DNA of 64,000 nucleotides from Closterium sp. NIES-65. Lineage: Eukaryota > Streptophyta > Zygnematophyceae > Desmidiales > Closteriaceae. Position numbers and translations under genes: made by a program. The notes beneath the pieces were generated by a model that was not told where the DNA came from, did no database searches, and saw only the letters and a program-made list of their open reading frames with translations. How positions within the stretch are numbered: the stretch's first letter is position 1; each line of letters opens with the position of its first letter. Shown here piece by piece: positions 24,310 through 47,800 of this stretch. The DNA lies in assembly GCA_948144175.1 (NCBI GenBank), contig CANXME010001990.1:1116001-1180000 (forward strand). Direction: 5' to 3'.

Positions 24310-24348
<39 letters not shown>

Positions 24349-24551: not shown

Positions 24552-24569
24552 AGGTTCCCTAGTGGGAAC

Positions 24570-25535: not shown

Positions 25536-25800
25536 GACCAGATGCAGCTCCAGCACCGTCCGCGTGAGTCTCTCACGCCCCAACACCTTCGTTAATGGTA
25601 CGCTAGTTGGGGTTGTCGGGGTAGCCGTGCTGTTACTGCTACTACTGCGGCTACTACTCCTACTGCTACTCCTGGCGGTGACCAGCTGCAGCTCCGGCAA
25701 CGTCCGCGTCAGTCCCTCCCGGCCCACCAGCTTCGTGAGTGGTACGCTAGGTGGGGTTGTCGGGGAGGCCTTAGTGGGAGTCGTTCTGGAGTGAGTAGTT
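25536..25800 (+). repeat. Tandem duplication of about 144 bp in E5
   Basis: GACCAGATGCAGCTCCAGCA (from 25536) and GACCAGCTGCAGCTCCGGCA (from 25680) start two copies of the segment that encodes the Gln-rich/QQLREWY region before the Cys/His motif. The first ends near 25623 in GTTGTCGGGG and is followed by a CTACTGCTACTG spacer. The gag capsid that should precede it is absent. Confidence 0.75.
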
Positions 25801-26189
25801 TGGGAGCTTCTTGTCGTGCCCAGGTGCAGCCTTGCGGGACTCTTGGTCACACAGAGTCCTGCTGCTTCGCCCGTTTGAGCGACGCTTGGCGTACAGTGTT
25901 TGGCGACGACGCTGAGCTCCCCTCCTGGTAGGAGCTACTTAGGCAGAGGGTAGACATCTTTACTCTATACTATGATGCTCTTCTCACTGCAATGTATGCA
26001 TTGACTACTAGTGCTGAGGGTGTCTCTCACCTATGTGTGCCGCCTGACCCAGGTATTCCGTCTCCTGCTCTAGGAGCTGGTGAGGCTGCTGCTCTAGGTG
26101 CTCGTGCGTCTCCTGCTCCAGGTGCTAGTGAGTCTCCTGCTTGAGGTGCTGGCGAGTCTGCTCTCTCTAGTGCAGCGCCTGGTGCGGTC

Positions 26190-29100
26190 GTACACACCTT
26201 CACCCTTGACTCAGGTGCTTCCCGCTCCTTCTTTTGAGACCGCACCACGCTTACGCCGCTAAGTCGGCCAGTGGCGGTCTCCCTGGCAGACCCCTCTAGG
26301 GGTCTTGTCCTTGCCCACTTCTCCACTGTTCTATCGTGTCCGGCGGCCCCTTCTGGCACCCTGTCGGGTCTTTACAAACTTGGTGAGTGGTGCTGACCTT
26401 CAGGATGGAGGGGTTCCCCAGTTCACTCCTGCGAGTCAGCGAGTGACCCACTGTACCTGTGCTCGGACGGGCCGTCACTTGGCCACGTTTACCCGTCAGC
26501 CTGGGTCGAGCCTCTACACACTGACTACTGAGTCTCCTCCATTCGCTGAGTCACCTCAGGTAGCCGCGTCGGGTCAGGTGTGTTCTGCGGCGTCCAGGCT
26601 TGGTCTTGAGTCTGCCCCCTGCTCGTGTCGTCTCCTGTCTCACTAGACTCTCCTCTAGCACCACCGCCTTGGTCACCCCTCCCTACCTCGTCTTTGAGGC
26701 ATGGCCTCCCGTATCCTTGTCTCTGGTATCCCCCGGTCCCTCCCTCCCCTTCGTCCGGGGCCTGCCCCCACCTGCGTTCCCCGCGTCGAGGGACGGCAGC
26801 GCGCTGCTCCTCAGTTCTCCAAGTTTCCTTCGACAGAGGCTCCGCTGCAGACGCTTCACATGGTTGTGTGGGGCCCAGCCCGCGTCCGTGGAAAGGGTCA
26901 CGAGCGTTACTTCTTGCTACTGGTTGACGACTACTCGCGTTACACCGCAGTCTTCCCCTTGCGCAGCAAGGGTGAGGTCACTGAGGTGTTGATCGCCTAG
27001 ATCCGCGCAGCTCGTCTCCAGCTCAGAGAGAGTTTCAGCTCGTACTTTCCTGTTCTGCGTCTGCACGCTGACAGAGGCGAAGAGTTCTCCTCTGACCTTC
27101 TGCGAGCCTTCTTTCGTGCACGAGGCATCCGCCAGACCTTCACGCTTCCGGACTCTCCGCAGCAAAATGGGATTGCTGAGCGCCGCATTGGCATGGTCAT
27201 GGACGTCGCTCGTACGTCCATTGTCCGTGAGGCTGCCCCCCATTTTCTGTGACCGTTTGCGGTTCGGTACGTGGCGCATCAGATCAACCTTCAGCCCCGG
27301 GTCTCCATGCCGAAGACCTCCCCTGCTTTGCTGTGGACGGGGAAGGTTGGCGATGCGTCTGCGTTCCGTGTCTAGGGATCTTGGGCGTTTGTCCGCGACT
27401 TGTCTGCGGACAAGCTGTCCCCTCGTGCTCTTCCGTGCGTCTTCCTTGGCTTCCCCCCTGACGCGCCGGGCTGGCAGTTCTACCACCCCACCTCACGCCG
27501 TGTTCTGTCCTCCTAGGACGTCACGTTTGACGAGTCGGTTCCCTACTACCGTCTCTTCCCCTACCGCACTGCTTCTCTCCCCCCCCCCCCCCGCCACTCT
27601 TCCTTACGCCAGGTCCCCCTCCGGAAGACCCCCCCCCCCCTCAAGGTCCTGCCCCCTCAGGTGTGTCTCACGTAGACGCAGTTGACCCTATCGAGGTAGC
27701 TATTAACACTGGTGCTACTAGGGTTGCTGAGCGTGCGGGTGCTGGGTCTGGGGGTGCTGACTCTGGGGGTGCTGAGCCTGGGGGTGCTGAGCCTAGGGGT
27801 GCTACGCCTGGGGGTGCTGAGCCTGGAGGTGCTGACTCTGGGGGTGCTGTGCCTGGGGGTGCTGAGCCTGGGGGTGCTACGCCTGGGGGTGCTGCGCCAG
27901 AGGGTGCTGAGCCTGAGGGTGCTGCGTCTGGGGGTGCGGAGTCTGAGGGTACTAGACCTACTCGTGTGGCATCTGGCGGTGCTGGGCTCGGAGGTTCTTC
28001 GGGTACTTCGTCCCGGCGGGAGCTACTCTCTCCACACGAGCTGCGCGAGTGGTTTGCTCAGCGCTGGAGGCGAGCTGCTGGAGCTGGAGGTGGTGCGGGT
28101 GCTGGAGGTTTTGCTGCTGCTGAGGGTGCTGGTGCCGCGGGTCCAGGAGGTGCTCGTACTGGGAGTACAAGAGCTGCTGGGCCTGCGGGTGCTTCTCGTA
28201 CTGGAGCTGGTGGTGTTGCGGGCGTCGGTGCTACCGAGGGTGCTGGAGCTGGAGCTGGTGAGGGTGTTGGCTCTGAGGGTGCCTCTCGTGCTGGTGCCTC
28301 TGAGGGTACTGGAGTTGGCGGTGCTAGAGGTGGGGTGCTACTGGAGCTGGTGCTGTCGTTGGGGGTGCTGGTGCGGGAGCTGCTGGTGGTGCTGGAGGTG
28401 GGGGTGCTGCTGGCGCTAATGCTATCATTCGGGGTGCTGGTGCTGTCCCTTCTAGTGCTGGTGGTGCTGAGCGGCCGCGGCCGTACTTCGTTCCGCTCCT
28501 TGAGCAGGTTCTTGGTCTTCCACCCTCTGCTAGTCCGGCTCCTCCCTTCGAGGGTCCACCGCCTGTCCAGTCCGAGTCACAGTTACAGCCTACCTCTCCT
28601 CTGCCTGCTCCTTCGCCCTACACTGGACCTACTGGAGGTCTTGCTGAGCGTCGTGAGCCTGCGTCTCGTCCTGCGTCCCCTGTCCCTACTGCTCGCACTA
28701 GTGGTCATGGTTCACGTCAGTGTCCTCCCCCTGTCCTCGGCACGCACCGGATGTCTCTGCGTCCTTCCACTGCTCCGCTGCGTGCCCCTTTGCCTTCTCC
28801 TCCTGAGTCCTCTCTTCCTGTTCTTGCTGACCTGGAGTCGGACTCCCTTTGTGCTGCCAGTCCTATTGTCATGCGTCTCCTTGCTACTGTCGTCACTGAC
28901 CCTTCCTTTGAGTCGCTGCTGCGTCAGCCTAAGTTTCTAAGCTTCTCAACTTTGCTTCTCGCTCTCGCCTAGACTACGCTACTAGTCTTGTCGCTGAGTC
29001 TGAGTCTGTCTTTCCTCCGACCGTCGGGGGTGAGTGTGCCCTTGGCACGGACGTCATTGAGAACAGGCAGAAGGAGTTCCAGTGCATTGCTACTGCTTCA

Positions 29101-30722
29101 CCTCATCTCGTGTCCATGCTGCTTGCCCCTGAGGGAGACCCGGATGCACCAGACATCCCGACTCTGCGCTCTTACGTAGAGGCAATAGAGATTCCCTACT
29201 CCTCTCAGTGGAAGGCACCCATGGATGCAGAGATGGCTTCCTGGAAGTCCACAGGCACCTACGTCGACGAGGTTCCCCCTCCTGGGGCGAACATCGTCAC
29301 TGGCATGTGGATTTTAAGGGTGAAGCGGCCGCCGGGTTCTACGCCTGTCTTCAAGGCGCGTTACGTGGCTCGTGGCTTCAGTCAGCTGCAGGGAGTTGAC
29401 TACTTTCAGACCTTCTCTCCCACCCCGGAGATGACCACTCTTCGGGTAGTGCTGCACATAGCTTCTCACCGTGACTACGAGCTACACTCTCTTGACTTCA
29501 GCACAGCTTTCTTGCAGGGCAGCCTGCACGAGGAGATCTGGCTGCGCCGCCCACCTGGCTTCACTGGGTCTTTTCCTCCAGGTACCCAGTGGAGCCTCTG
29601 GCGGCCACTCTACGGTCTCCGCGAGGCACCTCGTGAGTGGCACGACACACTGAGGACTACACTTGCGGCTCTTGGGTTTGCTCCTTCTACTGCCGACCCG
29701 TCACTGTTTCTGCGCACCGACACTTTCTTTGTAGCTGCTCTACATCAACGACTTGGTCTTTGCCACAGCTGACACTGCTGGACTCGCCCACGTGAAGTCT
29801 GAGCTGCAGAAGAGACACACGTGCACAGTCGAGGGTGAACTGCGTAGCTACCTTGGCTTGTAGATCACCTGGGACAGAGCACGCCGCACCATTACCCTGA
29901 CTCAGCCATACATGGTGCAGCAGGTCGTCCAGCGCTTCGGCTTCACGTACTCCTCGCCTAAGGCCACTCCTCTGTCTACTCGCCACTTGCTCTTAGCTCT
30001 GCCTTCCGATGAGTCCATAGAGTCTAGTGGCCCGTACCCAGAGCTTGTTGGCTGCCTCATGTACTTGATGACCTGCATCGACCTGACCTTGCATACCCTC
30101 TTAGCATTCTGGCATGCTATGTTGCTCCTGGGAAACACAGACCAGAGCACATGGCTGCAGCAAAGAGGGTGTTGCGCTACTTGTGCAGTACGTCGGGCAT
30201 GGGGCTTCTGCTTGGAGGGCGGAGTCCAATGGTCCTCACTGGTCACGCAGACGCTTCTTGGGCTGACGACCAGACTACGCAGCGGTCGTCACAGGGTTAC
30301 ACCTTCAGCCTTGGTTCCGGCTCTGTTTCGTGGCGGTCTACCCGCTCGTCTTCTGTTCTCGGCTGCAGTTGTGAGGCTGAGATCTAGCAGAGGCCATGGC
30401 TGCACAGGAGCTACGCTGGCTCACCTACCTGCTGACTGACCTTGGAGAGCCGCCTTGTTCTCCTCCAGTTCTGTATGTAGACAACAAGGCCATGCTGGCC
30501 TTGTGTCGGGAGCACAGACTGGAGCACAGAAGGAAGCACATCGCTCTTCGCTACTTCCTTGCTCGTGAGCTTCAGCAGCGCGGTCAGCTGCGCCTTGCTT
30601 ACGTGGCCTCTGAGGCCAACACTGCTGATATCTTTACCAAGGCACTTGCGCCTTGTGACCATCAGCGCTTCTGTACTCTGTTAGGTCTTGTACCTACCTT
30701 GCCTCACTTGCTCACTTCTTGA
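26190..30722 (+). pseudogene. E5 protease-integrase-RT-RNase H, broken
   Basis: Protease (HTFTLDSGASRSFF then a stop) lies near 26195-26240. Integrase runs from about 26640 to 27540, with HADRGEEFSS for the second Asp motif and DSPQQNGIAERRI. The linker of Gly-Gly-Ala-Glu-Pro repeats is at 27730-27960. RT starts near 29110 (EIPYSSQWKAPMDAEMASW). The catalytic box near 29741 reads YIND in place of YVDD. RNase H covers about 30150-30722 with HADASWADD, CEAEI followed by a stop, and YVDNKAMLALC. More than ten stops or frameshifts interrupt the frame. It cannot make a functional RT. Confidence 0.9.
27730..27960 (+). repeat. E5 15-bp minisatellite in the integrase-RT linker
   Basis: About 15 imperfect copies of a 15-base unit, consensus GGTGCTGAGCCTGGG, encoding Gly-Ala-Glu-Pro-Gly repeats. 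The same array occurs in E6-E9. Confidence 0.88.
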
Positions 30723-30940
30723 CCTTGCTTGTACTGTTACATATATATATTTATATATCTGCTCTTGCTTATTTAGCGTTATATATATGTGTGTACTCAT
30801 GCATGTGAACTAGCCTTGTGGCCTTGACCTTGTGCTCAGAATGTGTGGTGGCGTTGTGATCCACCCTGAGCTTGCTTTGCCTTGCTTTGCTTGACTGGTC
30901 TTGTGACCCCTTGTTCTCCCCCACTTTGCCTTTGGGGGTG

Positions 30941-31068
30941 TGTTAGACTTATATGATCTAGCCTGTGTAGGCTAGAGCGGGTTAGATACTAAGGGGTACA
31001 CAATTCTAGGGTTTCATATTTGTATCACTTCATTCCTTAGTTATTCCATCCTCGTTCTAATCTTCACA
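30941..31068 (+). repeat. E5 3' LTR
   Basis: 128 bp, TGTTAGACTTATATG to ATCTTCACA, followed by the TSD CAAAC. It is preceded by the family's short purine-rich GGGGGTG. Confidence 0.93.
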
Positions 31069-33198
31069 CAAACAAGCATCACATGCTGTACAGTTGTGTA
31101 AATGAGTTCAAACAAGTTCCTACTTAAATGCAATTGATTGAAATACCTGAATGTGTGAAGAAATGGTGCGAAAAATAACAACAAGACGTTCAAACGGTGA
31201 AATGTTGCGTACTGGCCTATCCTTGCACAGTTTCAGGCCATCGAAGGCACGAACAAGCGTCACGAGCTGCGCATTTGTGCAAATTAACTCAAACCAGTTC
31301 CTCTTGCATTGTAATTGAATGAACTACCTAATTGTTTGAAAAAAACGTGCTAAAAAGGACATCCAGACGATGAAACCGTGACATGTTGCGTACTGGCCTA
31401 ACCTTGCACAGTTTCAGGTCATCAAACGCAAAAACAAGCGTCATGTGCTGCATAGTTGTGCGAATTAACTCAAACCAGTTCCTAGGGCAAGGTAATTGAG
31501 TGAAATAACTGATTATGTGAAGAAATGGGGTTAAAAAAGACAACTAGATGATGAAACGGTGACATGTTGCGTATTGGCCTATCCTTGCAGAGGCTCAGGT
31601 CATCAAACGCACAAACAAGCGTCACGTGCTGCGTAGTTGTGCAAATTATCTCAAACCAGTTCCTATGGCAATGTAATTGAGTGAACTAACGGACTGTGTG
31701 AATAAATGGGGCTAAACAAGTCAACTAGATGATGAAACAGTGACATGTTACGTACTGGGCTATCCTTGCACAGTTTCAAGTCATCAAACACACAAACTAG
31801 CGTCACGTGTTGCGTAGTTGTGCGAATTGACTTAAGCAAGTGGATATGGCAAGGTAATTTATTTAAATACCTGAATTTGTGAATAATTGGTGCTAAAAAA
31901 GACAACCAGATGATGAAACGGTGACATGTTGCATAATGGCCTACCCTTGCACAGTTTCAGGCCAGCAAATGCACAAACAAGCGCCACCTGCTGCATAGTT
32001 GTGTGAACGAGGTCAAACCAGTTTCTTCGGCTAGGAAATAGGATGTAATAGGTAAATGGGTGAGAAAAAGAGGTTAAAAGAACACCCAGATGTTGAAACA
32101 CTAACATGTTGAGCACAAGCCTATCCTTGCACAGTTCCAGGCCAGCAAATGCACAAACAAGCGCCACGTGCTGCGTATTTGTGCGAATGAGATCAAACCA
32201 GTTCATATGGCTAGGAGATAGGATGTACTAGGGAACTGTATGAAGAAATAGAGGTAAACTTAACACCGAGACGTTGAAACAGTAGTATGTTACGCACATG
32301 CCCATCCTTGCACAAATTCAAGTTAGCAAACGCACGAACATGCGCCACGTGCTGCATAGTTGTGCGAACGAGGTCAAAGCAGTTCTTATGGCTAGAAAAT
32401 AGGATTTAGTAGAGAACTGTTTGAAGAAATAGTGCTAAAAAAGGCATCCATACATTGGCGAGCTGACATGTTGCGCACAGGCCTATCCTTGCACAGATTC
32501 AGGCCAGCAAACGCACAAACATGCGCCACGTGCTGCGTAGTTGTGCGAACGAGGTCAAACCAGTTCCTATGGCTATGGAATAGGATTTAGTAGGGAAGAG
32601 TGTGAAGAAATAGTGCTAGAAAAGGCATCCAGACGTTGGCGAGCTGACATGTTGCGCACAGGCCTATCCTTGCACAGATTCAAGCCAGCAAACGCACAAA
32701 CATGCGCTACGTGCTGCGTAGTTGTGCGAAAGAGGTCAAACCAGTTTCTATGGCTAGAAATTAGGATGTAGAAGAGAAATGTGTGAATAAATAGTGCTAA
32801 ACAAGGCATCCAGACGTTGGCGCGCTGACATGTTGTGCAGGCGCCTATCCTTGCACAGATTCAGGCCAGCAAACGCACAAACATGCGCCACGTGCTGTGT
32901 AGTTGTGCGAGCGAGGTCAAAACAGTTCCTATGGCTAGGGAATAGAATGTTGTAGGAAACAGTGTGAAGAAATAGCGCTAAACAATGCATCCTGACGTTC
33001 GCGAGCTGACATGTTGCACACAGGCCTATCCTTGCACAGATTCAGGCCAGCAAACGCACAAACAAACATCACGTGTTGCGTAGTGGTGCAAATTAACTCA
33101 AACCAGTTCCTATGGCAAGGTAATTGACTGAAATACCTGAATGTGTGAAGAATTTGTACTAAAATAGATAGCCAGACAATGAAACGGTGACATGTTGC
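31069..33198 (+). repeat. Satellite block B (left part), about 181-bp monomers
   Basis: About 12 head-to-tail monomers. The word CATGTTG or its variants recurs near 31200, 31382, 31563, 31744, 31925, 32105, 32287, 32467, 32648, 32829, 33010 and 33191, giving a period of 180-182 bases. Two monomer classes alternate in blocks: one with AATTAACTCAAACCAGTTCC and GATGAAACGGTGAC, the other with GAACGAGGTCAAACCAG and GACGTTGGCGAGCTGAC. Frames of 60-110 codons on the minus strand are by-products of the repeat. Confidence 0.95.
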
Positions 33199-33324
33199 TG
33201 TCAGAAACAATAAGTGGTTGAACTAAGAAAAGTTGGAGTACAAGTAGCAAACCCTAGATTTGTGTACCCCCTAAAGGCTAACCCACTATAGCCTACACAA
33301 CAATAACAGATATAGTGTTTGACA
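33199..33324 (-). repeat. Solo LTR of the short-LTR family in the satellite
   Basis: 126 bp, reading TGTCAAACACTATATC to GTTTCTGACA on the minus strand. It is flanked by GTTGC (33194-33198 and 33325-33329); removing it restores the satellite word CATGTTGCGTACTGG. It contains the family core (TGTAGGCTATAGTGGGTTAG). Confidence 0.95.
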
Positions 33325-33816
33325 GTTGCGTACTGGCCTATCCTTGCACAGTTTCAGGCCATCGAACGCACAAACAAGCGTCACGTGCTACGTAGTTGTG
33401 AAATTAACTCAAACCAGTTCCTACGGCGAGGTAATTGATTGAACTACCTGAATGTGTGGAGAAATGGTGCTAAAAATGACAACAATATGATAAAGCTATG
33501 GTATGTTACGTACTCGCCTATCCTTGCACAATTTCAGGCCATCAAACAAACAAACAAGCGCTACGTGCTCCTAAGTTGTGCGAATGAACTAAAACCAGTA
33601 CCTATGGCAAAGTGATTGGTTGAAATACCTGAATGTGTGGAGAAATGGTGCTAAAAAACACAATCTGATTATGAAACTGTGACAAGTTGCGTACTGGCCT
33701 ATCCTCGCGCAGTTTCAGGCCATCGAACACACAAACAAGCGTCACGTGCTGCGTAGTAGTGCGAACGAGCTCAAACAAGTTTTTATGGCAAGGTAATCGA
33801 TCGGAATACCTGATTC
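33325..33816 (+). repeat. Satellite block B (right part)
   Basis: Nearly three more monomers in phase with the left part after removal of the solo LTR (anchors near 33502 and 33682, period 180). It stops at 33816 where E6 begins. Confidence 0.93.
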
Positions 33817-33944
33817 TGTCAAACATTATATATGTTATAGTTCTGTAGGCTATAGTGGGTTTAGCCTTAGGGGGTACACAATTCTAGGTTTTCCTACTTG
33901 TACTCTCAATCTTCCTAATTCAATCACTCCTTCTCATTCTAACA
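33817..33944 (+). repeat. E6 5' LTR
   Basis: 128 bp, TGTCAAACATTATATATG to CATTCTAACA. It is followed by a primer-like TTGCATCAGGAGCC (33945-33958), a diverged form of the initiator-Met site. Confidence 0.93.
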
Positions 33945-33959
33945 TTGCATCAGGAGCCT

Positions 33960-34500
33960 AGGTTAGGAACCTAGGACCATGTGTTACTAAAGGCCCGTCC
34001 TTCCGCTAGCGCCCTCGAGCGCCTTCTCACTTTAGCGCCCTCGCGCGCCTCGCTGTCCGTGCGCCCTCGCGCGCCTCGCTGTCTCGTTGCGTAGCCCATT
34101 AGAAGCCCGAGCGCGGCCCGTTTTTTGCCCGCACGCGGCCTCGTTTTTCCCCACGCAGCTCGTTAGCCGCCCTCGCGTGGCCTCCTTCTAGTGCGCGCGA
34201 CCCCCCCCCCCCCTAGCCGCCCACGCCGTCAACGTAGCCCGCCTTGGCCTCGCGCGGCCCCTAGAGCAGCTCGCCAGCTGCCCGTCGACCGGCGCGCGCC
34301 GCCACCTCGCCCTTGCAGGCCACCGCCCGTGCGTAGGTCGTCGCCCACGGGTAGGCCACAGCCAGCCCGTAGGCCGCCACCTCGACCCGCGCGCCGGCCC
34401 ACCCTCTCTGCCGAGCCGCGCCGCGCAGTCCTGCCCGAGCCGCGCCGCCCGAGTCGCGCCGCCCTGACCGAGCCGCGACGCCCCACCTGCAGCAACTGCT
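33960..34500 (+). repeat. E6 GC-rich leader
   Basis: A leader of GC-rich short repeats (CGCCCTCGCGCGCCTCGC, then GCCGCGCCGCCC units). It is shorter than in E5 and E7-E9. Antisense and sense frames over it encode only low-complexity Arg/Pro/Ala. Confidence 0.8.
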
Positions 34501-34584
34501 GTTCCTGTTCCTGCTGTTACAGCTGTCCTTACTACTACAGCTGCTCCTGCTACTGCTCTTACTGCTACTGCTACTACTGCCACT

Positions 34585-37500
34585 ATGGCTACACCGACAG
34601 TTCTCTCTTTCGATGCTGAGGGCCGTCCTCTCCAGTTTGATATCTGGCTCGACAATCTCCACCTCTTCCTCCAGATCACTGCTAAGGATGATGTCTCGCT
34701 GTATGACCATGCGTCTAGAACTGCTCTAGCACCTCCTGACACTTCTGACAGTACAGCTCGCTCCCACTGGCAGACTCGTGACGCCCACGCTCGCCTAGCC
34801 ATTCGCAGCCTCCTGCCGTTAGATGAGCGCACACACTTCGGCCAGCATAAGACTACTAAGGCGCTGTACGATGCAGTCGTCGCTCGCTACTCCTTGCCTG
34901 CCTCTGCTACGATAGGCCGTCTCTCGCTGCCCTATCTTTTCCCCGACCTCCCCGCCTTTCCCACAGTCGCTGACCTCATTACCCACCTCCGCACTAATGA
35001 CACTCGCTACCGCGCCGCCCTTCCTGCTGAGTTCCTCGCCAAGAATCCCCCCCCGATGTACCTCTTCTCTACCACCTAGTCACTCGTCTCCCTGACTCTC
35101 TTCGCACAGTCAGGGACCACTTTCTCGCCCTCTGCCCAACCGAGCTCACCATTGACCTCCTCGAGAAGCATCTGCTTGCAGCTGAGTCTAGCATAGTTGC
35201 TGTAGGTGCCTCTCGTGGCGACCCCCGCACGCCCTTCTTTGACGGGTGTTTCCCTCCCCCCCTTCTCCCCTCGGTTGCCTCTACTGCCGCTGTCGACTTC
35301 CTTGGTGCTGAGGAAGTTGGGGCTGCGTCTGCTCCTAGCTGGAGGCGCAAGGGCGGCAAGGGCAAGGGGGGCAAGGGTGGTAGTGGTGCTAGCGGGGGGG
35401 GGGGTGGAGGTGGAGGTGGAGGTGGCAGCGGTGGGGGCGGTGGGGGTGATGGCGGTGGTGGGGGTGGTAGCGGGGCTGCGGGGGTGGGTGGCAGCGGCGG
35501 GGGTGGTGGCGGCAGTGGTGGTGGAGGAGGCTGGGGTAAAGGTGGTGGTGGTGGAGGCAGTGGGCATGGGGGTGGCAGCTCGGGTGGTGATCGGGGTGGA
35601 CTGGCGCAGTGTGGAGGCTCGGGTGGTGTCCAGCGCCAGCACCAGCGTCTTCGAGAGACCCCGTCGTCCCAGCAGCTTCGTGAGTGGTACTCTTGGCATG
35701 GGGGGTCTGGGGGCGGGGGTACCTGCACGTATGTCATCCGCACAGGTGACCGCGCTGGTCTGACGTGTGGGAGGTTCCACACGCCACAGCACTGCTTCTT
35801 CCGTCTCGACGACGCCTGGCGTGCACAGTTCTCTGAGGCCTCTGAGCTGCCCCGCTGGTATGATCTGCTTAAAAAGAACATTGATCTCTTTGCACTTGAC
35901 TTTGATGTTATCCTTGAGCCATGTATGCATTGACTATTAGTGTTGAGGGTGACTGTTACTTGTGTGTGCCACCAGACCCACGCATTGCAACCAGTCAGGC
36001 TGCCGCTCTAGGTGCCAGTGTGTCTGCTGCCCCAGGTCCTAGTGAGGCTGCTGCTCTAGGTGCAGGTGTGTCTGCTGCGTCAGGTACTTGTGAGTCTGCG
36101 CTTTCAGGTACTGCATCCACTGAGGCACTGCACACCTTCACACTGGACTCTGGTGCTTCTCGCTGTTTCTTTCGCGACCGCACTGCCCTAGAGCAGCTCC
36201 CTAGGCCGGTTGCTGTTTCCCTTGCTGACCCCTACGGGGGTCCGGCCCTTGCGACCTCCACCACTGCCCTCCCTTGTCCTGCTGTCCCGTCTGGTACCCT
36301 GTCGAGCCTTTACCTCCCCTCATTCTCTATGAACTTGGTGGCGGGTTCCGCGCTCCAAGATACGGGTGTTCACCAGTTCACCCCTGCCTACGAGCGTGTG
36401 ACACAGTGCACGTGTGCCCACACGGGTCGACACCTGGCTACCTTCACTCGGCAGCTGGGGTCCGACTTGTACACACTGACCACTAAGTCCCTCAGGTAGC
36501 GGCGTCTGCGTCTGCGTCGGGTCAGTTGTCCGCCCCCTGCTCGTGTCGCACCCTATCGCACCGGACGATCCTCTGGCACAACCGCCTTGGGCACCCTTCG
36601 ATGCAGCGCCTTCGTGGCATGCACTCCCGTTACCTTGTCTCTGGTCTCCCCAGGTCACTCCCTCCCCTGCCACCGTCCCCTGCCCCTCCTTGCCTTCCCT
36701 ATGTCGAGGGGCGGCAGCATGCCACCCCTCACTCCTCTGAGTTTCCCCCGACGGAGGCCCCTCTGCAGACCCTGCACATGGATGTATGGGGCCCAGCCCG
36801 CGTCCGTGGACAGGGAGGGGAGCGCTACTTCCTTCTGGTAGTTGACGACTACACGTGTTACACCACGGTCTTCCCCTTGCGCACTAAGGGAGAGGTCCCT
36901 GCTGTTTTGATCCCTTGGATCTGCGCTACCCGTCTCCAGCTGGAGAAGCGCTTTCGCACGGACCTTCTCGTCCTGCGACTCCACTTTGACAGAGGTGGTG
37001 AGTTTTCCTCCGGTCTCTTGGAGACCTTCTATCAGGGGGAGGGCATTCGCCAGACGTTCACGCTTCCGGCCTCTCCTCAGCAGAATGGGGTTGCTGAGCG
37101 CTGCATTGGCTTGGTCATGGAGGTCGCTCGTACCTCCTTGGTCCATGCTGCTGCCCCCCATTTTCTGTGGCCATTTGTGGTCCGGTATGCCGCGCATCAG
37201 CTCAACCTCTTGCCCCGTGTCTCCGTTCCGGAGACCTCGCCAACGCTGCGTTGGACGGGAGAGGTTGGGGATGCGTCTGTGTTCCGGGTCTGGGGATCTT
37301 GTGCCTTTGTCCGTGATACGTCCGCGAACAAGCTCTCCGCTTGTGCTGCTCCCTGTGTCTTCCTTGGCTTTGTCCCTGACGCGCCTAGCTGGCAGTTTTA
37401 CCACCCCACCTCGCACCGGGTCTTCGCCTCTCAGGACGTCACTTTTGACGAGTCGAACCCCTTCTACCGTCTCTTCCCCTACCGCACTGCCCCGCTCCCC

Positions 37501-37644
37501 CCCCCCGCCGCTCTTCCTCATGCCAGGTGCTGCTTTGGTAGACCCTATGCCTCCCCAGGGTCTTGCTCCCTCAGGTGTTTCCCAGGTAGATCCGGTCAAA
37601 ACTGTCGAGGTAGCTGTCGACTCTGGTCCTCCGCGAGGTACTGA
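34585..37644 (+). pseudogene. E6 gag-protease-integrase
   Basis: Gag starts at ATG 34585 (MATPTVLSFDAEGRPLQFDIW), as in E8 and E9. A frameshift near 35055-35060, in a C run, ends the first frame; gag continues to 35930 with a Gly-rich tract (35390-35600) and the Cys/His motif CTYVIRTGDRAGLTCG...H....C. Protease (HTFTLDSGASRCFF) is in 35921-36499, and another shift leads to integrase in 36526-37644. The zinc finger has a Tyr for its last Cys (PPCLPYVEG). The catalytic motifs HMDVWGPA, HFDRGGEF and SPQQNGVAERC are kept. Confidence 0.9.
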
Positions 37645-38029
37645 GCGTGCTGAGCCTGACCGTGCTGGGCCTGGTGGTGCTGGGTATGGGGGTACTGAGA
37701 CTGGGGCTGCTGAGCCTGGGGGTGTGGAGACTGAGGGTGCTGAGGCTGGGGATGCAGAGACTATGGGTGCTGAGCCTGGGGGTGCAGAGACTCGGGGTGC
37801 TGAGCCTGGGGGTGCATAGACTGCGGGTGCTGAGCCTGGGGGTGCTGTCCCTAGGGGTGCTGAGTCTAGAGGTCCTGAGCCTGGGGGTACTACGCCTGGG
37901 GGCGCTCTCTCTTCTCAGCAGTTGCGTGAGTGGTACTCTCGGTACTGTCGCCGCCTCCGTGGTGCTACTGGAGCTGGAGCTGAGGGCGCTGTACCTACTG
38001 GAGGTGGTGTTGCTACTGACCCTAGGGTC
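37645..38029 (+). repeat. E6 integrase-RT linker minisatellite
   Basis: Imperfect copies of the 15-base GGTGCTGAGCCTGGG unit from about 37665 to 37905, followed by the conserved LREWY-like segment (CAGTTGCGTGAGTGGTACTC). The nested solo LTR interrupts the linker at 38030. Confidence 0.85.
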
Positions 38030-38801
38030 TGTTGTTCAGGATCCGTCACTTTGAGAGCTTACGACGAACTCATTACCCAACTAAACGCAAATCTGCTCAA
38101 TAGGATTGTGGGCCTTAGGCTTAGCTACCATCTCCAAGTTGAATCAGTCGTTAAGATGGTATAGAGAGTGAGAACCATATAAAAACGTCCAACAACCGCA
38201 TGACTAGAATGGTAGAAGAAGTACAAACATTAGGGCATAGAAAGTTGGAGTTGGGGACTCCAAGAGAACCATGAGAGAGAAGGGGTTCTCCAAGAGCTAG
38301 GGAAGGATGGTAGGAACCTTCCTAGAAGCAAGGATGCAACCCTCATCATGAGGTCCTTGAGGTGTCACATGCAAAATCCAATCTAGTTGGATTTTGCCTA
38401 GGTGTTGCAACATTTGCAACCCATGCTAGAAACTTCTAGCCACCCCAATCCAAAAGTCAAAGTTGCCTTCCCTAACCACCCAACCAAAGATCCCTTTATA
38501 GTCATGTCCCAAGTAATCACTCAAATTAGATATAACCCCAAAAGGTAATAAGAAATCCAAGTCTTGGAAATCTTGTAACTTGGGCGATCTTGGTCGGAAT
38601 AAGGCGATCTTGGTATCGTTGGAAAGCTCTGGATTTCTCCTGCATGATCAAGCATTAAGACTTGGAGAGAAACACAGAGATGACAATATCCAACAGCCAT
38701 GCATAATGACATATGCTCATCCAAATCATGCAAGCACAAATAGCACGAGCACTCGGCAGGACGTTAGGATGAGATGCACTCAGAATGACGTGCATCCAAC
38801 A
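38030..38801 (-). repeat. Solo LTR of the E4 family, nested in E6
   Basis: 772 bp reading TGTTGGATGCACG to ...TGAACAACA on the minus strand, homologous to the E4 3' LTR over its length. The TSD GGGTC lies at 38025-38029 and 38802-38806. It shows that the E4 family was active after E6 had inserted. Confidence 0.95.
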
Positions 38802-38806
38802 GGGTC

Positions 38807-40800
38807 GGCACCGGAGGTGCAGGAGCCACTGGTCCTGGAGGTGCTGCTGGTGTTGCTGGGGGTACTGGAGGTGCTGGTGCTACTGGAGGTATTAGAGCTG
38901 CTGGTGGTGCTGCAGGAGTTGGAGCTGCTGCTGGAGGTTCTAGTGCTGTCTCTACTGGTTCTGGAGGCACTACACGGCCGCGACCGTACTTCGTTTCACT
39001 CCTCCAGCAGGTTCTTGGTCAGCCGCCTCCTCCTTGTCCTGCTCCCTCCTTAGATTGTCCTCCGCTTGTCCAGTCGCAGTCACAGCTACCGCCTGCCTCG
39101 CCACTTCCTGGTCCTTCTCTCTACACTGGACCGACATGCGGTCTTACAGAGCGTCGTGTGCCTGAGTCTCGTCCTGTGTCGCCTGAGTCTCGTCCTGTGT
39201 CGCCTGTTCTTGCTGCTCGTACTGGTCGCCGTGCTCTGCGTGAGCGTCCTCCACCTGTCCCTGGCACACACTAGATGACTCTGCGTCCTTCCACATCCAC
39301 TGCGTGTCCCTCTGCCGTCTCCTCCTGCGTCCTTTCTTCCTGTCCTTGCTGACCCGGAGTCTGACCGGGTTCGTGCTGCCAGTCCTACTATCACGCGTCT
39401 CCTGGCCACTGCTGTCACTAACCCTTCCTTTGAGTCTGCTGCTGCGTCTTCCCTAGTTGTCGAGCTTGTCGACTTTACAACTCGCTGTCGTCTAGACTAC
39501 GCCGCGAGTCTTGTTGCTGAGTCTGAGTCTGTCTGTCCTCCATCCGTCGGGGGTGAGTGTGCTCTAGGCACGGACGTCCTTGAGGACAGACAGGAGGACC
39601 TTGAGTGTCTTACAGCCGTTGCGCCTCATCTCGTGTCCATGCTACTTGCCCATCGCGGGAGAGTAATCCTCTCATTGGCAGTCAGCCATGGACGCAAAGA
39701 TGGCCTCCTGGTAGTCCACTGGCACTTACCTCGATGAGGTTCCCCCTCCCGGGGCGAACATCATCACTGGCATGTGGATTTTCAGGGTGAAGCGGCCGCC
39801 AGGTTCTCCACCTGTCTTCAAGGCTCGTTACGTTGCGCGAGGCTTCAGTCAGCGAGAGGGAGTAGACTTCTTTCAGACCTTCTCCCCCACCCTAAGATGA
39901 CCACTCTTCGGGTGCTACTGCACGTTGCCGCTCAGCGTTACTACGAGCTTCACTCTCTTGACTTCAGCACAGCGTTCTTGCAGGGCAGCCTACACGAGGA
40001 GATCTGGCTGTGCCGCCCTCCTGGCTTCACTGGGTCGTTTCCCCCTAGTACCCTGTGGAGCCTCCGGTGGCCGGTCTACGGTCTCGGTCAGGCGCCGCGT
40101 GAGTGGCACGACACACTGAGGACTACTTTTGCGGCTCTTGGGTTCGCGCCTTCTACTGCTGACCCGTCGCTGTTTCTGCGCACCGACACGTCGCTGCCGC
40201 TGTTCTACATCCTCGTGTACGTCGACGACTTGGTCTTTGCCACTACTGACACTAAGGCTCTCGCCCACGTGAAGTCGAAGCTGTAGAAGAGACACAGGTG
40301 CACAGACCTGGGTGAACTGCGCAGCTACCTTGGCTTGCAGATCACCCGGGACAGAGCACGCCGCACCATCACACTGACTCAGTCACACATGGTGCAGCAG
40401 GTTCTTCAGCGCTTCGGCTTCACCTGGTCCTCAGCACAGGCCACTCCTCTGGCTACAGGTCACTCGCTCCCAGCTCCGCCTTTGGATGAGTCCGTTGAGC
40501 CGAGTGGTCCTTACCCAGAGCTAGTTGGCTTCCTCATGTACCTGATGACGTGCACTTGTCTTGACCTAGCATACCCTCTTGGCCTTCTGGCCCGCTACGT
40601 GGCTCCTGGCAGGCACCGAAAGGTGCTATGGGATGCTGCTAAGAGGGTACTCTGCTACTTGCCAGTACATCAGCTACTTTGCTGTCGTCACAGGGCTACA
40701 CCTTCAGTCTTGGCTCTGGCTCTGTCTCTTGGCGTTCTACACGCTCGTCTTCAGTTCTCAGCTCCAGTTGTGAGGCTGAGATCTACGCCAAGGCTACACA
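38807..40800 (+). pseudogene. E6 linker end, RT and truncated RNase H
   Basis: After the solo LTR the linker resumes (Gly/Ala-rich, then the RPRPYFVPLL-like segment near 38970). The region before RT (39300-39660) has lost bases and contains stops. RT runs from about 39700 to 40650: WIFRVKRPPGSPPVFKARYVARGF is recognisable with shifts, YVDD lies near 40218, and the thumb follows in 40335-40620. RNase H breaks at about 40660, skips the first Asp motif, keeps RSSSVLSSSCEAEIYA and then joins the 3' LTR lead-in. Confidence 0.88.
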
Positions 40801-40824
40801 GGAGTTACATTGCCTATGGGGGTG

Positions 40825-40938
40825 TGTCAAACATTATATATGTTATAGTTCTGTAGGCTATAGTGGGTTTAGCCTTAGGGGGCACACAATTCTAGGTTTT
40901 CCTATTTGTACTCTCAATCGTCCTAGTTCAATCACTCC
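40825..40938 (+). repeat. E6 3' LTR, end deleted
   Basis: It starts TGTCAAACATTATATATG and matches the 5' LTR to CAATCACTCC, where it is cut. The remaining TTCTCATTCTAACA is replaced by satellite. About 21 bases of satellite are missing at the same point. Confidence 0.9.
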
Positions 40939-41885
40939 AAGTCATCTAGATGATGAAACTGTGACATGTTGCGTACTGGCCTATCCTTGCACAGTTTCAG
41001 GTCATAAAACGCACAAACAAGCGTCACGTGTTGCGTAGTTGTGCAAATTAACTTAAATGAGTTGCTATGGCAAGGTAATTGATTGAAATACCTGAAAGTT
41101 TGAATAATAGGTGCTAAAAAAGACAACCAGATGATGAAACAGTGACATGTTGCATAATGGCCTATCCTTGCACAGTTTCAGGCCAGCAAATGCACAAACA
41201 AGCGCCACCTGCTGCGCAGTTGTGTGAACGAGGTCAAACCAGTGTCTTTGGCTAGGAAATAGGATGTAATAGGGAACTGTATGAAGAAATAGTGGTAAAA
41301 TCAACACCCACACGTTGAAACAGTAGTATGTTGCGCACATGCCCATCCTTGCATAGATTCACGCCAGCAAACGCACGAACATGCGCCACGTGCTGCGTAG
41401 TTGGGCAAATGAGGTCAAAGCAGTTCCTATGGCTAGAAAAAAGGATGTAGTTGAGAACTGTTTGAAGAAATAGTGCTAAAAAAGGCATCCATACGTTGGC
41501 AAGCTGACATGTTGCGAAGAGGCCTATCCTTGCACAGATTCAGGCCAGCAAACGCACAAACATGCGCCACGTGCTGCATAGTTGTGCGAACGATGTCAAA
41601 CCAGTTCCTATGGCTAGGGAATAGGATGTAGTAGGGAAGAGTGTGAAGAAATAGTGCTAGAAAAGGCATCCAGACGTTGGTGAGTTGACATGTTGCGCAC
41701 AGGCCTATCCTTCCACAGATTCAAGCCAGCAAACGCACAAACTTGCGCTACGTGCTGCGTAGTTGTGCGCACAAGGTCAAACCAGTTTCTATGGCTAGAA
41801 AACAGGATGCAGTAGAGAGAACAATGTGAAGAAGTAGTGCTAAAAAAGGCATCCGAACGTTGGCGAGCTGACATGTTGCGCAGGC
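40939..41885 (+). repeat. Satellite block C
   Basis: About five monomers with anchors at 40965, 41146, 41327, 41508, 41689 and 41872, a period of exactly 181 for four steps. The monomers repeat the order seen in block B from about 31744 onward, with one monomer missing (see findings). Satellite similarity ends near 41885. Confidence 0.93.
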
Positions 41886-41944
41886 GTGTGAGATTACGAC
41901 GGCTTATGCTGGCTTTGCTAGCTTGCCTAGACTTTATTTTGCTA
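41886..41944. other. Non-satellite spacer and E7 left target
   Basis: About 55 bases without similarity to satellite or elements, ending in TGCTA (41940-41944), the left copy of the E7 target site. Confidence 0.5.
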
Positions 41945-42069
41945 TGTCAGATTTATATGACTTAGCTGCTGTAGGCTATAGTGGGGTAGCACATATGGGG
42001 TAGAGCTTTCTAGGGTTTTTACTTGTACCCAACTTTCCCTTAGTCATTTCATTCTCGTTCAATTTCACG
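41945..42069 (+). repeat. E7 5' LTR
   Basis: 125 bp, TGTCAGATTTATATG to ATTTCACG (the terminal CA has become CG). The primer site TGGTATAGAGC follows at 42070-42080, one base shorter than the standard TGGTATCAGAGC. Confidence 0.93.
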
Positions 42070-42119
42070 TGGTATAGAGCAGGCTCCCCTGTGGGAACTG
42101 TTGCTAGGGCCCACCGATT

Positions 42120-42870
42120 TTTTTCCTACCCGGAGCGCGCTCAGCCTCTGCCCGAGTCGCCCTCCCCTCTCACGACCCTGTCGCGCCGCCCTTACGACCT
42201 TGTCGCGCCGCCTTAGCGGCCTCGTCGCGTCGCGCCTCCCTAGCGGCCCCGTGGAGTCGCCCTTGCGACCCCGTCAAACCGCCCTCGCGGCCCCATCACG
42301 TCGCGCCGCCCTCACGGCCTCGTTGCGCCGCTGTAGCGGCCCCGTTCCGCCACCCTCGCAGCCTCGTCGCGTAGCGCCGCCCTTGCGGCCCTTTCGCGCC
42401 GCCCTCGCAGCCTCTTCGAGCCGCCCTAGCGACCCCTCCACGCCGCCCTCGCGGGCCCGTCGCCTACCCTTGCGGCCCCGGCGCCGCTCTTCCGGCCCCG
42501 GCGCCGCCTCTCCTGGCCCCGTCGCCCCACCCTTGCGACCCCGCGGCCCCACCCTTAAGGCGCCGGTCGCCACCCTTCGTGGCCCCGCCGCCGCCCTCAG
42601 CGGCCTCGTCGATGCCCCACCTGGCCCCGCCGTCGTCCCTTCAGTTGCCGTGCCACCCTCCGCAGCCCCGCCGTCACCACCGAGCCGCCGGCGCCGCTGA
42701 GCCGCCGTTGCCGCTGTGCTGCCAAGCCGCCGCTGATGCCGAGCCGCCCGAGCCGCCCGAGCTGTCGAGCCGCCGCTGCTGCCACCCACCCGAGCCGCCC
42801 GAGCCGCCGAGCTGCCGAGCTGCAGTTGCTGCCAAGCCGCCAAGCCGCCCGAGCCGCCCTGTCCGGTAAG
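42120..42870 (+). repeat. E7 GC-rich leader
   Basis: About 750 bases of degenerate CGCCCTCGCGGCCCCGTCGC-type repeats passing into CCGAGCCGCCCGAGC units. Open frames of 150-200 codons on both strands are artefacts of composition. Confidence 0.85.
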
Positions 42871-42933
42871 AGCGGCACCTCTACCACTGCGCTGCCCTTA
42901 GCCTACTGCTTGCGCTGCTAGTCTACTGCTGTC

Positions 42934-44820
42934 ACGGCTACCCCCAGTGTCTTCGCTTTTGACGCTGAGGGTCGGGCCATTGACTTTGACGTCTGGGTAG
43001 AAGACCTGCAGCTTTTCCTACAGTGCGATAGAGCAGACGGTCTCTCCCTCTTTGACCTCAAATCTGGTGCCTCTCCTGCCCCTACTGCTGATGCTGACGC
43101 CACTGTTCGCTCACACTGGGCCACACGCGATGCTGCTGCACGTCTTGCTGTGCGTCGCCACTTGCCTACCTCTGAGCGTGCGCACTTTAGCCAGTACAAG
43201 AGTGCTAGGACCTTGTACGACGCTGTAGTTGCACGCTAATCTTCCCCTGCCAGTGCTTCACTTAGCCGCCTCATCCTGCCGTACCTCTTCCTTGACCTCG
43301 CAGCTTTTCCCACAGTCGCTGACCTCATAACGCACCTTCGCACTAATGACATTCGCTACCGCACTGCCCTTCCCGCTGAGTTCTGCGCCAAGAACCCCCC
43401 CCTCCCCTATGTACATCACCCTCAACTACATAGTCACCCGGCTCCCTGACACCCTTCGCTTGGTCTGGGACCACTTTCTCTCTGTTTGCCCCACCACCCT
43501 CACCGTTGCCCTCCTTGAGGAGCACCTCCTAGCAGCATAGTCGCTATAGGAGCCTCTCGTGGTGACCCTCGTGCCCCTGTCTTTGAGGGGTGCTCCCCCT
43601 CTCCTCTCTTGCCCTCTGTTGCCTCTGCTACTGCGGCCAACCTCGTTGGTCTTGAGTCAGTCGGTGCGGCGTCTGCCCCTAGCGGGAGACGCCGCACTAG
43701 CAAGGGCAAGGAGGGCAGGGGCGCTGGAGGAGCTAGCAGGGGCGGTGGAGGCGGCGGTGGAGGCGGCGGAGGGGGTGGGGGTGGCGGTGAGGGTGGTGGC
43801 GGGGGTGGGGGTGTCAGTGGCGGCAGTGGAGGCGGAGGCGGCGGCAGCAGTGGCGGTGGGAGCGGAGGTGGCAGAGGTGGCGGCATTGGAGGAGGCGGCG
43901 GCGGAGGAGGTGGAGCTGGTCGGGGTGGCGCTGCGCAGAGGGTCGGCTCTGGTGGTGGTCAGCGCCAGCACCTGTAGCTCACTCGTGACATCCCCCCCCC
44001 TCAGCAGCTCTGTGAGTGGTACGCTGCACGCCAGCGGGGTGGGGGTACTGGTCCGTGCACGTACGTCCTACGCACCGGCGACCGCGCGGGTGAGCCGTGC
44101 AGGGGTGCGCACTCCACCTAGCGCTGCTTTGGCCGCCTGATAGACGCTTGGCGTCACTAGTTCTCTGAGGTCACTGAGATCCCTCGCTGGGGCGAGCTGT
44201 CTAGGGCGGGAGTAGCTATCTTTGACCTTGACTTTGATGCTATTCTTGCTGCCATGTATGCTGTGACTATTAGTGATGAGGGTGACTGTTACCGGGGTGT
44301 TTTCCGCCTGACCCGGGCATTGAGACTGCTGCTCTAGGTACTGGTGAGGCTGCTGCTCTAGGTACTAGCGAGGCTGCTACTCTAGGTGCCATTGCGTCTG
44401 CTTCTTCAGGTGCTGGTGAGTCTTCTCTCTCAGGTACTGCGCCGGCTCCGGCCTCCCACACCTTCACCCTTGACTCGGGGGCTTCTCGCTCCTTTCGAGA
44501 CCGCACCACACTCACGCCGCTTGGTCGGCCAGTTGCAGTCTCTCTCGCGAACTCCTCTAGGGGTCCTGTCCTTGCTCACTTCTCCACTGTCCTCCCGTGT
44601 CCGCCGGACCCCTCTGGAACCTTGTCTGGTCTTTACCTCCCCTTGTTCTCTATGAACTTGGTGAGTGGTGCTGACCAACAGGATGTTGGGGCTCACCAGT
44701 TCACTCCTGCGAGCCAGCGAGTGACCCACTGCACGGACGCTCGGACGGGCCGACACTTGGCCACGTTTACACGTCGGCCGGGGTCGAGCCTGTACACACT
44801 GACCAGTGAGTCTCCTCCAA
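42934..44820 (+). pseudogene. E7 gag-protease
   Basis: The conserved gag start codon is ACG (42934-42936) instead of ATG; the next residues (ATPSVFAFDAEGRAIDFDVW) fit E8 and E9. A TAA near 43237 replaces Tyr, and a frameshift follows near 43405 in a C run. A Gly-rich tract of about 75 residues (43735-43930) precedes the Cys/His motif CTYVLRTGDRAGEPC...H....C, which contains a stop between H and C. Protease (HTFTLDSGASRSF) is in 44455-44520 with a small deletion after the box. Confidence 0.9.
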
Positions 44821-44899
44821 TCACTGCGTCTGATCAGGCAGCTGCGTTGGGTCAGGTGTTTGCGGCAGGGTCCAGGTCGGGTCCGGAGTCTGCCCCCTG

Positions 44900-47800
44900 C
44901 TCGTGTCACCTCCTGTCTCACAAGACTCTCCTTTGGCACCACCGCCTTGGTCACCCCTCCCTGCTTCGTCTCCGAAGCATGGCCTCCCGTGTCCTTGTCT
45001 CTGGTCTTCCCCGGTCCCTCCCTCCCCTTCCTCCGGGGCCTGGCCCTACCTGCGTCCCCTGTGTCGAGGGGCCACAGCGTGCTGCCCCTCACTCCTCTCA
45101 GTTTCCTCCGACAGAGGCCCCGCTGCAGACGCTTCACATGGACGTGTGGGGCCCGGCCCGCGTCCTTGGACAGGGTCACGAGCGCTACTTCCTGCTGGTG
45201 GTTGACGACTAATCGCGTTACACCACAGTCTTCCCCTTGCACAGCAAGGGTGATGTCACTGAGGTGTTGATCGACTGGATCCGCGCAGCTCGTCTCCAGC
45301 TCAGGAAGAGTTTCGGCTCGGACTTTCCTGTTCTGCGTCTGCACTCTGACAGAGGCGGAGAGTTCTCCTCTGGCCTTCTACGAGCCTACTGTCATGCACG
45401 AGGCATCCGCCACACCTTCACGGTTGGGGACTCTCCGCAGCAAAATGGGATTGCTGAGCGCCGCATTGGCATGGTCATGGACGTCGCCCGTACGTCCATG
45501 ATGCATGCGGCTGCCCCCCATTTTCTGTGGCCGTTTGCGGTTCGGTACGCGGCGCTTCAGATCAACCTTCAGCCCAGGGTCTCCATGCCGGAGACTTCCC
45601 GAGCTTTGCTGTGGCAGGGAAGGGTGGCGATACGTCTGCGTTCCGTGTCTGGGGATCTCGGGCGTTTGTCCGCGACTTGTCTGCGGACAAGGTGTCCCCT
45701 CGTGCTGCTCCCTTCGTCTTCCTTGGCTTCCCCCCTGACGCGCCAAGGTGGCAGTTCTACCATCCCACCTCTCGCCGTGTTCTATTCTTCCAGGACGTCA
45801 CGTTTGATGAGTCGGTCCCCTACTACCGTCTCTTCCCCTACCGCACTCCGTCCCTCCCCCCGCCACCGCTCTTCCTTGTGCCAGGTCCCCCCCCGGTAGA
45901 CCCCCTTCCCGCTCAGGGTCCTGCCCCTTCACGTGTGTCCCAAGTAGAAGCAGTCGAGCCTGTGGAGGTCCCTTGTGACTCTGGTGCTGCTGGGGATGCT
46001 GAGCCTGGGGGTGCTGACTCTAGGGGTGCTGAGCGTGTGGGTGCTACGCGTGGGGGTACTGAGCCTAGGGGTGCTGAGTTTGAGGGTGCTGCGACTAGGG
46101 GTGCTCAGGGTGGGAGTGCTGAGTCTAGGGGTACTGAGCCTGGGGGTGCTACGACTGGGGGTGCTGAGCCTGGGGGTGCTACGCCTGGAGGTGCTGAGCC
46201 TGGGTGTGCGGAGCCTGAGGGAGCTGGGCTTGCTCGTGTGGCGTCTGGCGGTGCTGGGCCTGGGGGTTCTCCGGGTGCTTTGTCTCGACGGGAGCCACTC
46301 TCTCCACAGGAGGTGCGTGAATGGTTTGCCTGGCGCTTGAGGCGTGCTGCTGGAGCTGGAGGTTCTTCGGCTGCTGAGGGTGCTAGTGCCATGGGTCCCG
46401 GAGGTGCTCGTACTAGGAGTACTGGAGCTGCTGGTCCTGCAAGTACTAGTGGAGCTGGAGCCACTGCGTCTTCTCGTAGTCCAGCTGGAGGTGGAGCTGC
46501 TGAGGGTGTTGGCGTTGACGGTACTGGAGGCGGTCCTGCTGGGGGTGCTACTGGTGCAGCTGGAGGTCCTGGAGCTACTGGAGCTGCTGGGGGTACTAGA
46601 GCTGGAGGTGCTACTGGCGCTAGTGCTATGGCTGGGGGTGCTGGTGCTGACCGTGCTGTGACTGGAGACGTTGCGCCGCCTCGGCCGTACTTCGTTCCGC
46701 TCCTTGAGCAGGTTCTTGGTCTCCCGCCTTCTACTGGTCCTCCTCCTCCCTTAGAGTGTCCACAGCCTGTCCCGTTACACCCGGCCTCCCCACTGCCTGC
46801 TCCGTCTCCCTACACTGGTCCTACTAGAGGTCTTGCTGAGCGTCGTGAGCCTTCGTCTCGTCGTGCGTTGCCTGTCCGTGCTGCTCGCGCTAGTGGTCGT
46901 GGTTCGCGTCCGCGTCCTCCCCCTATGCCCGGCACGCACCAAATGTCTCTCCGTCCGTCCACTACTCCTCTGCGTGCCCCTTTGCCTTCTCCTCCTGAGT
47001 CCTCTCTTCCTGCTCTTGCTGACCCAGAGTCGGACTCCCTTCGTGCTGCCAGTCCGACTGTCACGCGTCTCCTGGCTACTGTTGTTACTAACCCTTCCTT
47101 TGAGTCCACTGCTGCGTCTGCCCTAGTTGCTGAGCCCGTCGACTTTGCTGCTCGCTGTCGTCTAGACTACGCTGCTAGTCTTGTCGCTGAGTCTGAGTCT
47201 GTCTGTCCTCCGTCCGTCGGGGGTGAGTGTGCCCTTGGCACGGACGTTCTTGAGGACAGGCAGGAGGAGGTCCAGTGTTTGGCTGCTGCTTCACCTCATC
47301 TCGTGTCCGTACTGCTTACCCCTGAGGGAGACCCGGATGCATTTGACATCCGGACTCCGCGCTCTTACGCGGAGACGATAGAGGGTCCCTAATCCTCCAA
47401 GTGGCAGGTAGCTATGGATGCAAAGATGGCTTCTTGGAAGTCCACAGGCACCTACGTTGACGAGGTTCCCCCGCGTGGGGCCAACATCGTCAGTGGCATG
47501 TGGATTTTAAGGGTGAAGCGGCCTGGGTTCTACGCCTGTCTTCAAGGCGCGTTACGTGGCTCGTGGCTTCAGTCAGCTGCAGGGAGTTGACTACTTTCAG
47601 ACCTTCTCTCCCACCCCGGAGATGACCACTCTTCGGGTAGTGCTGCACATAGCTGCTCACCGTGACTACGAGCTACACTCTCTTGACTTCAGCACAGCTT
47701 TCTTGCAGGGCAGCCTGCACGAGGAGATCTGGCTGCGCCGCCCACTTGGCTTCACTGGGACTTTTCCTCCTAGCACCTAGTGGAGCCTCCGGCGGCCAGT

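Follow-up and report, generated by a model that had tools for sequence, protein, structure and literature searches.

A 181-bp satellite of Closterium sp. NIES-65 as the probable internal array of PlavakaB-type DNA transposons, with a locally duplicated run of monomers

A 64,000-nucleotide stretch of Closterium sp. NIES-65 (assembly GCA_948144175.1, contig CANXME010001990.1, positions 1,116,001 to 1,180,000 of the forward strand), hereafter the window, holds a 181-bp tandem repeat that is interrupted by Copia-type long terminal repeat (LTR) elements. The original prediction took this satellite for an 11-monomer higher-order repeat in a centromeric or pericentromeric array, which raises the questions of what carries the satellite and how its monomers came to stand in a repeated order. 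Our analysis led us to conclude, with high though not complete confidence, that PlavakaB-type cut-and-paste DNA transposons carry the satellite as their internal tandem array, and that in the copy seen in the window Copia elements have split this array and about eleven successive monomers were duplicated, probably by unequal exchange. Below, contigs are given as C with a number, the contig carrying the window being C1692, and L009 is its stretch past the right edge of the window (L009:536-1755 = C1692:1180536-1181755). The window copy is called W, B and C are array blocks in the window, and R is the array just past its right edge.

Arms, termini and transposase of the satellite-bearing elements

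A 532-base satellite query gave 144 scored matches on at least 27 contigs of the 874,075,685-base assembly, a spread that is a lower bound, since 40 of the 382 candidates were scored. Where scored, the satellite occurs in short dispersed arrays, the longest uninterrupted one in the fetched loci having 17 units, on contigs that are not placed on chromosomes. Searches of viral and genome contig collections with satellite patterns, and blastn against plasmids and phages, gave no match. The satellite loci share flanks on both sides at 70-99% identity, and the arrays sit between common left and right arms.

The right arms of three subfamilies end at one homologous point, which reads ..TGATG or ..CGATG. 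Copies at different sites have right arms with 98.2-99.8% identity (561/562 between C2129 and C1566, 98.2% between C1617 and C957), and the DNA downstream of them is unrelated. Among 17 downstream flanks compared, 14 are distinct, with three identical pairs (C708/C1808, C1617/C325 and C1449/C1954); the flanks of C1450 and C1809 have a 73% stretch in common, at different offsets. With the C2129 right arm as query, 39 of 42 matches reached query base 562, which is where the query ends, so that this count shows only homology up to the terminus, and the stop itself rests on the arm and flank comparisons. A right arm or terminus was found in 23 of the 27 satellite contigs, 17 by right-arm search and six by reading of the terminus.

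Both ends were read in four elements, namely those of C70 (10,678 bp), C2188 (11,379 bp), C2129 (5,991 bp) and C708 (12,992 bp including inserted DNA, with the left end picked via its inverted repeat). All four are bounded by a matching 2-bp target site duplication (TSD; GC, CT, TG and GA, respectively), and chance alone would give four such matches in four about once in 65,000. The C708 element has the termini CATCA..TGATG within a 14-bp terminal inverted repeat, CATCAGAAAATTGT, and right ends with TGATG were also read in W, C1617, C957 and C325. In a sister subfamily comprising C2129, C70 and C2188, the termini are CATCG..CGATG and the ends match over five bases. Two other explanations of the shared sequence were rejected. 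A segmental duplication with conserved flanking genes does not agree with the Pfam scan, in which none of five arm open reading frames (ORFs) exceeded the cut-offs, or with the flanks, which do not align past the termini; a Helitron does not agree with the varying bases after the 3′ end or with inverted termini accompanied by TSDs. C1659 and C965 have the same site as C2129, as if three haplotypes had been assembled.

The minus-strand ORFs of C70 and C2188 carry the Plavaka transposase domain PF18759, with E-values of 3.7e-22 and 1.5e-15. The matches cover positions 38-322 of the 325 in the profile, and the two ORFs of locus L051 scored 79.4 and 57.7 bits (cut-off 26.3); a Protein Data Bank search with one transposase piece gave no match. 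C70 and C2188, which are near-identical copies, also hold 5 and 7 satellite units, and they share with C2129 only the outer ends (498 aligned bases at 81.9% on the left, 205 at 90.2% on the right). No transposase domain was found in the window copy. The satellite-bearing elements themselves show common arms, sharply defined termini and 2-bp TSDs, occur as near-identical copies at separate sites and include a transposase domain. We propose that an element would consist of a left arm, a head-to-tail 181-bp array and a right arm, that longer copies would add the Plavaka transposase beside the array, and, as we infer, that this transposase moves the shorter copies too. Between the array and the transposase ORFs lies a 272-aa ORF (L051:155-970, minus strand), which had no Pfam match above cut-off.

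Fungal PlavakaB elements are described with termini CATCA..TGATG and TSDs of 2 or 3 bp (PMC12730594; this and the other papers cited were available as excerpts, to which our comparisons refer). The occurrence of the satellite together with the transposase, of CATCA..TGATG or CATCG..CGATG termini and of 2-bp TSDs matches this published signature, and the element ends had been read before the signature was found. The Closterium elements differ from the fungal ones in their internal 181-bp array, the term ‘tandem repeat’ occurring 0 times in the available text of that paper, and in that no TET/JBP gene was seen here among the four ORFs scanned.

The duplicated run of monomers in the window

Tandem Repeats Finder detected the 181-bp repeat at 31067-33198, 33320-33813 and 40939-41882, and a hidden Markov model of the monomer placed all units on the plus strand and added about 1.5 units at 24160-24418, so the satellite itself was predicted correctly. 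Conservation within the unit is highest over the 16 bases at positions 19-34. Block A (24160-24418), the left limit of the satellite in the window, comprises the final portion of one monomer and a second, diverged monomer that contains an internal poly-A, as judged by the model and the sequence. Block B (31069-33198) holds monomers 1 to 12, the last as its first part only. Monomers 5 to 12a (31793-33198), which are colinear with C and R, form the first part of copy 1 of the duplicated block, and its remainder (33325-33816) consists of monomers 12b, 13, 14 and 15a, of which B13, B14 and B15a pair with R5, R6 and R7. Copy 2 starts in block C (40939-41888), which contains part of a 2/3/4-like monomer, followed by monomers 5, 6/7, 8 and 9 and part of a 9/10-like monomer. 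All these features lie on the plus strand. Array R begins at C1692:1180536, which lies 536 bases beyond the window and follows three of the Copia elements (E7, E8 and E9) and other sequence; it holds monomers 9 to 15a and runs into the transposon right arm, which ends at C1692:1182368. This arm is 92.1% identical to that of C1808, and its end (L009:2368) places the right terminus of the window copy 2.4 kb beyond the window.

The expectation that the monomers of block C stand in the same order as those of block B, about eleven units further along, was confirmed by the identities of single monomers, with 165/181 for C1 and B5, 169/181 for C3 and B8 and 174/181 for C4 and B9, and by 5000 draws of random partners from the same subfamily, none of which scored higher and nine of which tied. 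The partial C5 matches B10 and B9 equally (124/144 each) and is placed beside B10, weakly, in the tree. Monomer C2 (41195-41375, plus strand) is a hybrid that is B6-like to about column 78 and B7-like beyond (94.9% to B6 over columns 1-78, 89.3% to B7 over columns 79-181), which means that the monomer lost from block C went into a 6/7 fusion. The loss had been predicted as a trace of unequal exchange, and the hybrid bears this out. In array R, monomers R1-R7 match B9-B15 in order at 95.0, 95.0, 95.0, 95.6, 96.0, 93.9 and 94.1%, the last value falling to 90.1% across the full matched length of R7 and B15, and none of 5000 random draws reached this colinearity.

Monomers 5-15 thus occur twice. 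The paired copies are identical at 1741 of 1854 positions (93.9%), compared with a mean of 80.8% between adjacent monomers, so that copies of the multi-monomer block are more alike than neighbouring monomers, as expected of a higher-order repeat and in line with the original prediction. An IQ-TREE tree of 39 monomers, including those of B, C, R and C708, contained seven well-supported pairs (B5-C1, B8-C3, B10-R2, B11-R3, B12-R4, B13-R5 and B14-R6), with weaker support for B9-C4 and B7-C2. At the C708 locus, monomers 11-14 branch outside the four corresponding B/R pairs, which indicates that the duplication took place after the split from C708.

The predicted 11-monomer higher-order repeat stood in part. 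About eleven monomers form a block that occurs twice, but no regular unit is reiterated through the array, which has two copies, an offset that drifts in logical monomers (11 at C1, 10 at C3 to C5, 12 at R1 to R7) and monomers 1-4 that do not recur. Monomers 12-15 are no closer to 1-4 than expected by chance (80.26%, against a mean of 80.32% for random class mates), and mean identity by lag is highest at 12 (86.2%), followed by 11 (81.9%) and 10 (80.9%). We recomputed the spacing between B and C, predicted as 11 x 181, as about 1989 bases; the figure agrees but is weak evidence, as phase alone forces a multiple of 181. A harsher verdict, that the 11-mer was wholly refuted by the unlikeness of monomers 12-15 to 1-4 and by the lack of a TSD at the Copia element E6, was dropped when array R showed that the block is truly duplicated, and the failure at monomers 1-4 stands. 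What is present is a local duplication in two copies that resembles a minimal higher-order repeat. Other loci have arrangements of their own, including three-monomer repeats (lag 3) at 97-100% identity in C1862 (L029) and C2129 (L028) and blocks four monomers apart at 98-99% in C1450 (L030), whose apparent allele C218 has 12 units compared with 16.

Origin of the duplication and rival explanations

The window would represent the array of one copy lacking its left arm, split by Copia elements, within which about eleven successive monomers (5-15) underwent a tandem duplication. A near-register unequal exchange between monomers 15 and 4 (15x4) could have generated the duplication; this is the least certain step, because the 3′ LTR of E6, the Copia element at the junction of the two copies, is shortened. 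A further exchange (6x7) would have produced the fusion with the loss of one monomer, and another (10x8) would have led to the repetition of monomers 9-10. The shortened LTR of E6 and its lack of a TSD also fit a different history, in which copy 2 is a transposon of its own, or an array joined by ectopic recombination between copies, and the broken right end of E6 marks the join without any unequal exchange inside one element. The last unit of the C708 array breaks off at position 87, near the point at which E6 starts here (position 85), and C708 and C1808 carry the block once. We consider this history rather improbable, though worth keeping in mind, since B and R are nearer to each other in the tree than either is to C708, the joins are nearly in phase (monomer 15 position 85 to position 107 at E6; monomer 20 position 144 to position 148 at E7-E9), and a second left or right arm was looked for between the copies and not found. 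It is scarcely credible that the doubling is an assembly error or a collapse of haplotypes: near-identical, seemingly allelic contigs are indeed present in the assembly, but B and R differ by about 5%, there are hybrid monomers, and the copies are parted on one contig by distinct Copia insertions.

As for the satellite as a whole, a centromeric or pericentromeric 11-monomer higher-order repeat beside which the transposon arms are incidental could draw on a unit near nucleosome length, an ordered block in two copies at about 94-95% identity and dense Copia insertions. We regard it as highly unlikely, given that the arrays are short in the fetched loci and lie on at least 27 contigs, that they have arms and termini in common and occur within transposase-bearing copies, and that the 11-mer does not extend to monomers 1-4, although a long array may exist outside the 40 of 382 candidates scored. 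A satellite that is dispersed and carried by a DNA transposon family does not support the predicted centromeric setting, and the duplication says nothing about a centromere. Nor do we give much credit to an old satellite that entered, or was captured by, transposons several times independently and was not ancestral to the element. The arms do differ strongly among subfamilies, with left arms that share only short stretches; the array, however, is oriented alike and sits at the same place between homologous arms across the compared subfamilies, in long and short copies.

Several observations speak against the internal array of a PlavakaB-type transposon, duplicated within one copy, which we nevertheless prefer. 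No left arm of the window copy was found in the window, and a search with the outermost 657 bases of the left arm of C708 gave eight matches in the assembly, none of them on C1692; with one terminus found and the other not, the window copy appears left-truncated or disrupted. C180 and C852 have only part of the right arm, and a right arm was shown neither in C1965, whose terminus was not in the 1.2 kb fetched, nor in C2354, which was not fetched. The C2129 element lies in a 34-bp minisatellite (L028:1540-1790 and 7781-7920), which makes its 2-bp TSD ambiguous. In the tree, R1 is near B9 and is not paired with B9 alone, and the two sides of the E6 junction, with its shortened LTR and missing TSD, could have been joined by another rearrangement. 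Finally, 9-mers common to the monomers were not enriched in the element ends beyond shuffles (C70R reached 3, the shuffle maximum). Tandem repeats have been proposed as transposase binding sites for Galileo and Tetris (PMC4079207), a role that, without such enrichment, finds no support for the array here; the array may be a passenger in the element.

Transposon-borne satellites are already a known kind (PMC4079207, PMC7320549). The foldback transposon Tetris of Drosophila virilis is likewise a DNA transposon with a variable number of tandem repeats, there of about 220 bp (TIR-220); its allelic copies differ by one repeat, for which unequal crossing-over has been invoked (PMC4079207). In Tetris, these units are located within long terminal inverted repeats and no transposase was found, whereas here one central array stands beside the transposase gene. 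In Chenopodium, too, a transposon, the CACTA-like Jozin, is linked to satellite arrays, those of CficCl-61-40, whose monomers of about 40 bp, in place of 181 bp, derive from a tnp2 fragment (PMC7320549). Plavaka-type transposons outside fungi are known as EnSpm-Plavaka, apparently active, in the green alga Auxenochlorella, with neither an internal satellite nor termini given in the text available (PMC12633428). In the literature searched, as far as its text was available, we found no description of a PlavakaB-type carrier with a central 181-bp array forming several kinds of higher-order repeat, and nothing on Plavaka together with ‘tandem repeat’ or ‘satellite’.

The occurrence of the 181-bp unit in transposase-bearing and shorter copies, with insertions dated by identical or near-identical copies at different sites, would place arrays of different age side by side. 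With it, the range of PlavakaB-type elements with internal arrays would reach into a large, possibly non-fungal genome. Higher-order repeats would then emerge from a single starting array independently of one another and outside centromeres, a point relevant to the question of whether they need centromere function. As a tentative generalization, about which we remain doubtful, PlavakaB transposons outside fungi could be mobile satellite carriers that seed arrays, each of which builds its own higher-order repeats (three-monomer in C1862 and C2129, about eleven here). If the array also served transposition or chromatin, it would be a self-moving satellite in which the birth of higher-order repeats could be watched copy by copy.

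LTR elements and other features of the window

The predicted insertion of Copia-type LTR elements into the array was verified by TSDs and LTR comparison, and RVT_2 and rve domains are present in related Copia ORFs. E5 (24424-31068, plus strand) separates block A from block B, with the 5-bp TSD CAAAC and LTRs identical at 110/116 positions (94.8%). A solo LTR in monomer 12 (33199-33324, minus strand) has the TSD GTTGC, and the monomers of C708 are contiguous at this position, which represents the empty site. E6 (33817-40938, plus strand), between the two copies, has LTRs identical at 110/114 positions (96.5%), of which the 3′ LTR is about 14 bases short. To the right of block C follow E7 (41945-49257, plus strand; TSD TGCTA, by eye; LTRs 125/131, 95.4%), E8 (49363-56726, minus strand; TSD GGTTA, by eye) and E9 (56733-64000, plus strand), a Copia-type element that reaches the window edge. 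The LTRs of E8 are identical (135/135, 100%), indicating a very recent insertion. Compared with the difference of about 5% between the copies of the duplication, these identities suggest that E5-E8 were inserted around or after it, a rough estimate from about 115-135 bases per LTR. A Copia query gave no match in the viral contig collection.

Within E6, a further solo LTR of about 770 bp lies on the minus strand at 38030-38801, with the TSD GGGTC. A related LTR, at 23410-24146, reads as the 3′ LTR of another Copia-type element with ORFs at 18744-23309; a self-comparison of the window showed no matching 5′ LTR. No Rfam families or tRNAs were found in the window. A segment of about 0.87 kb is present at 5264-6131 and 10849-11717 (93.8% identity) and, inverted, at 16528-17369, and the region 7771-11012 recurs in inverted orientation at 13093-16316 (89.9%). 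GC-rich minisatellites, their units about 17-23 bases long, occur in the 5′ regions of Copia-type elements (55725-57751).

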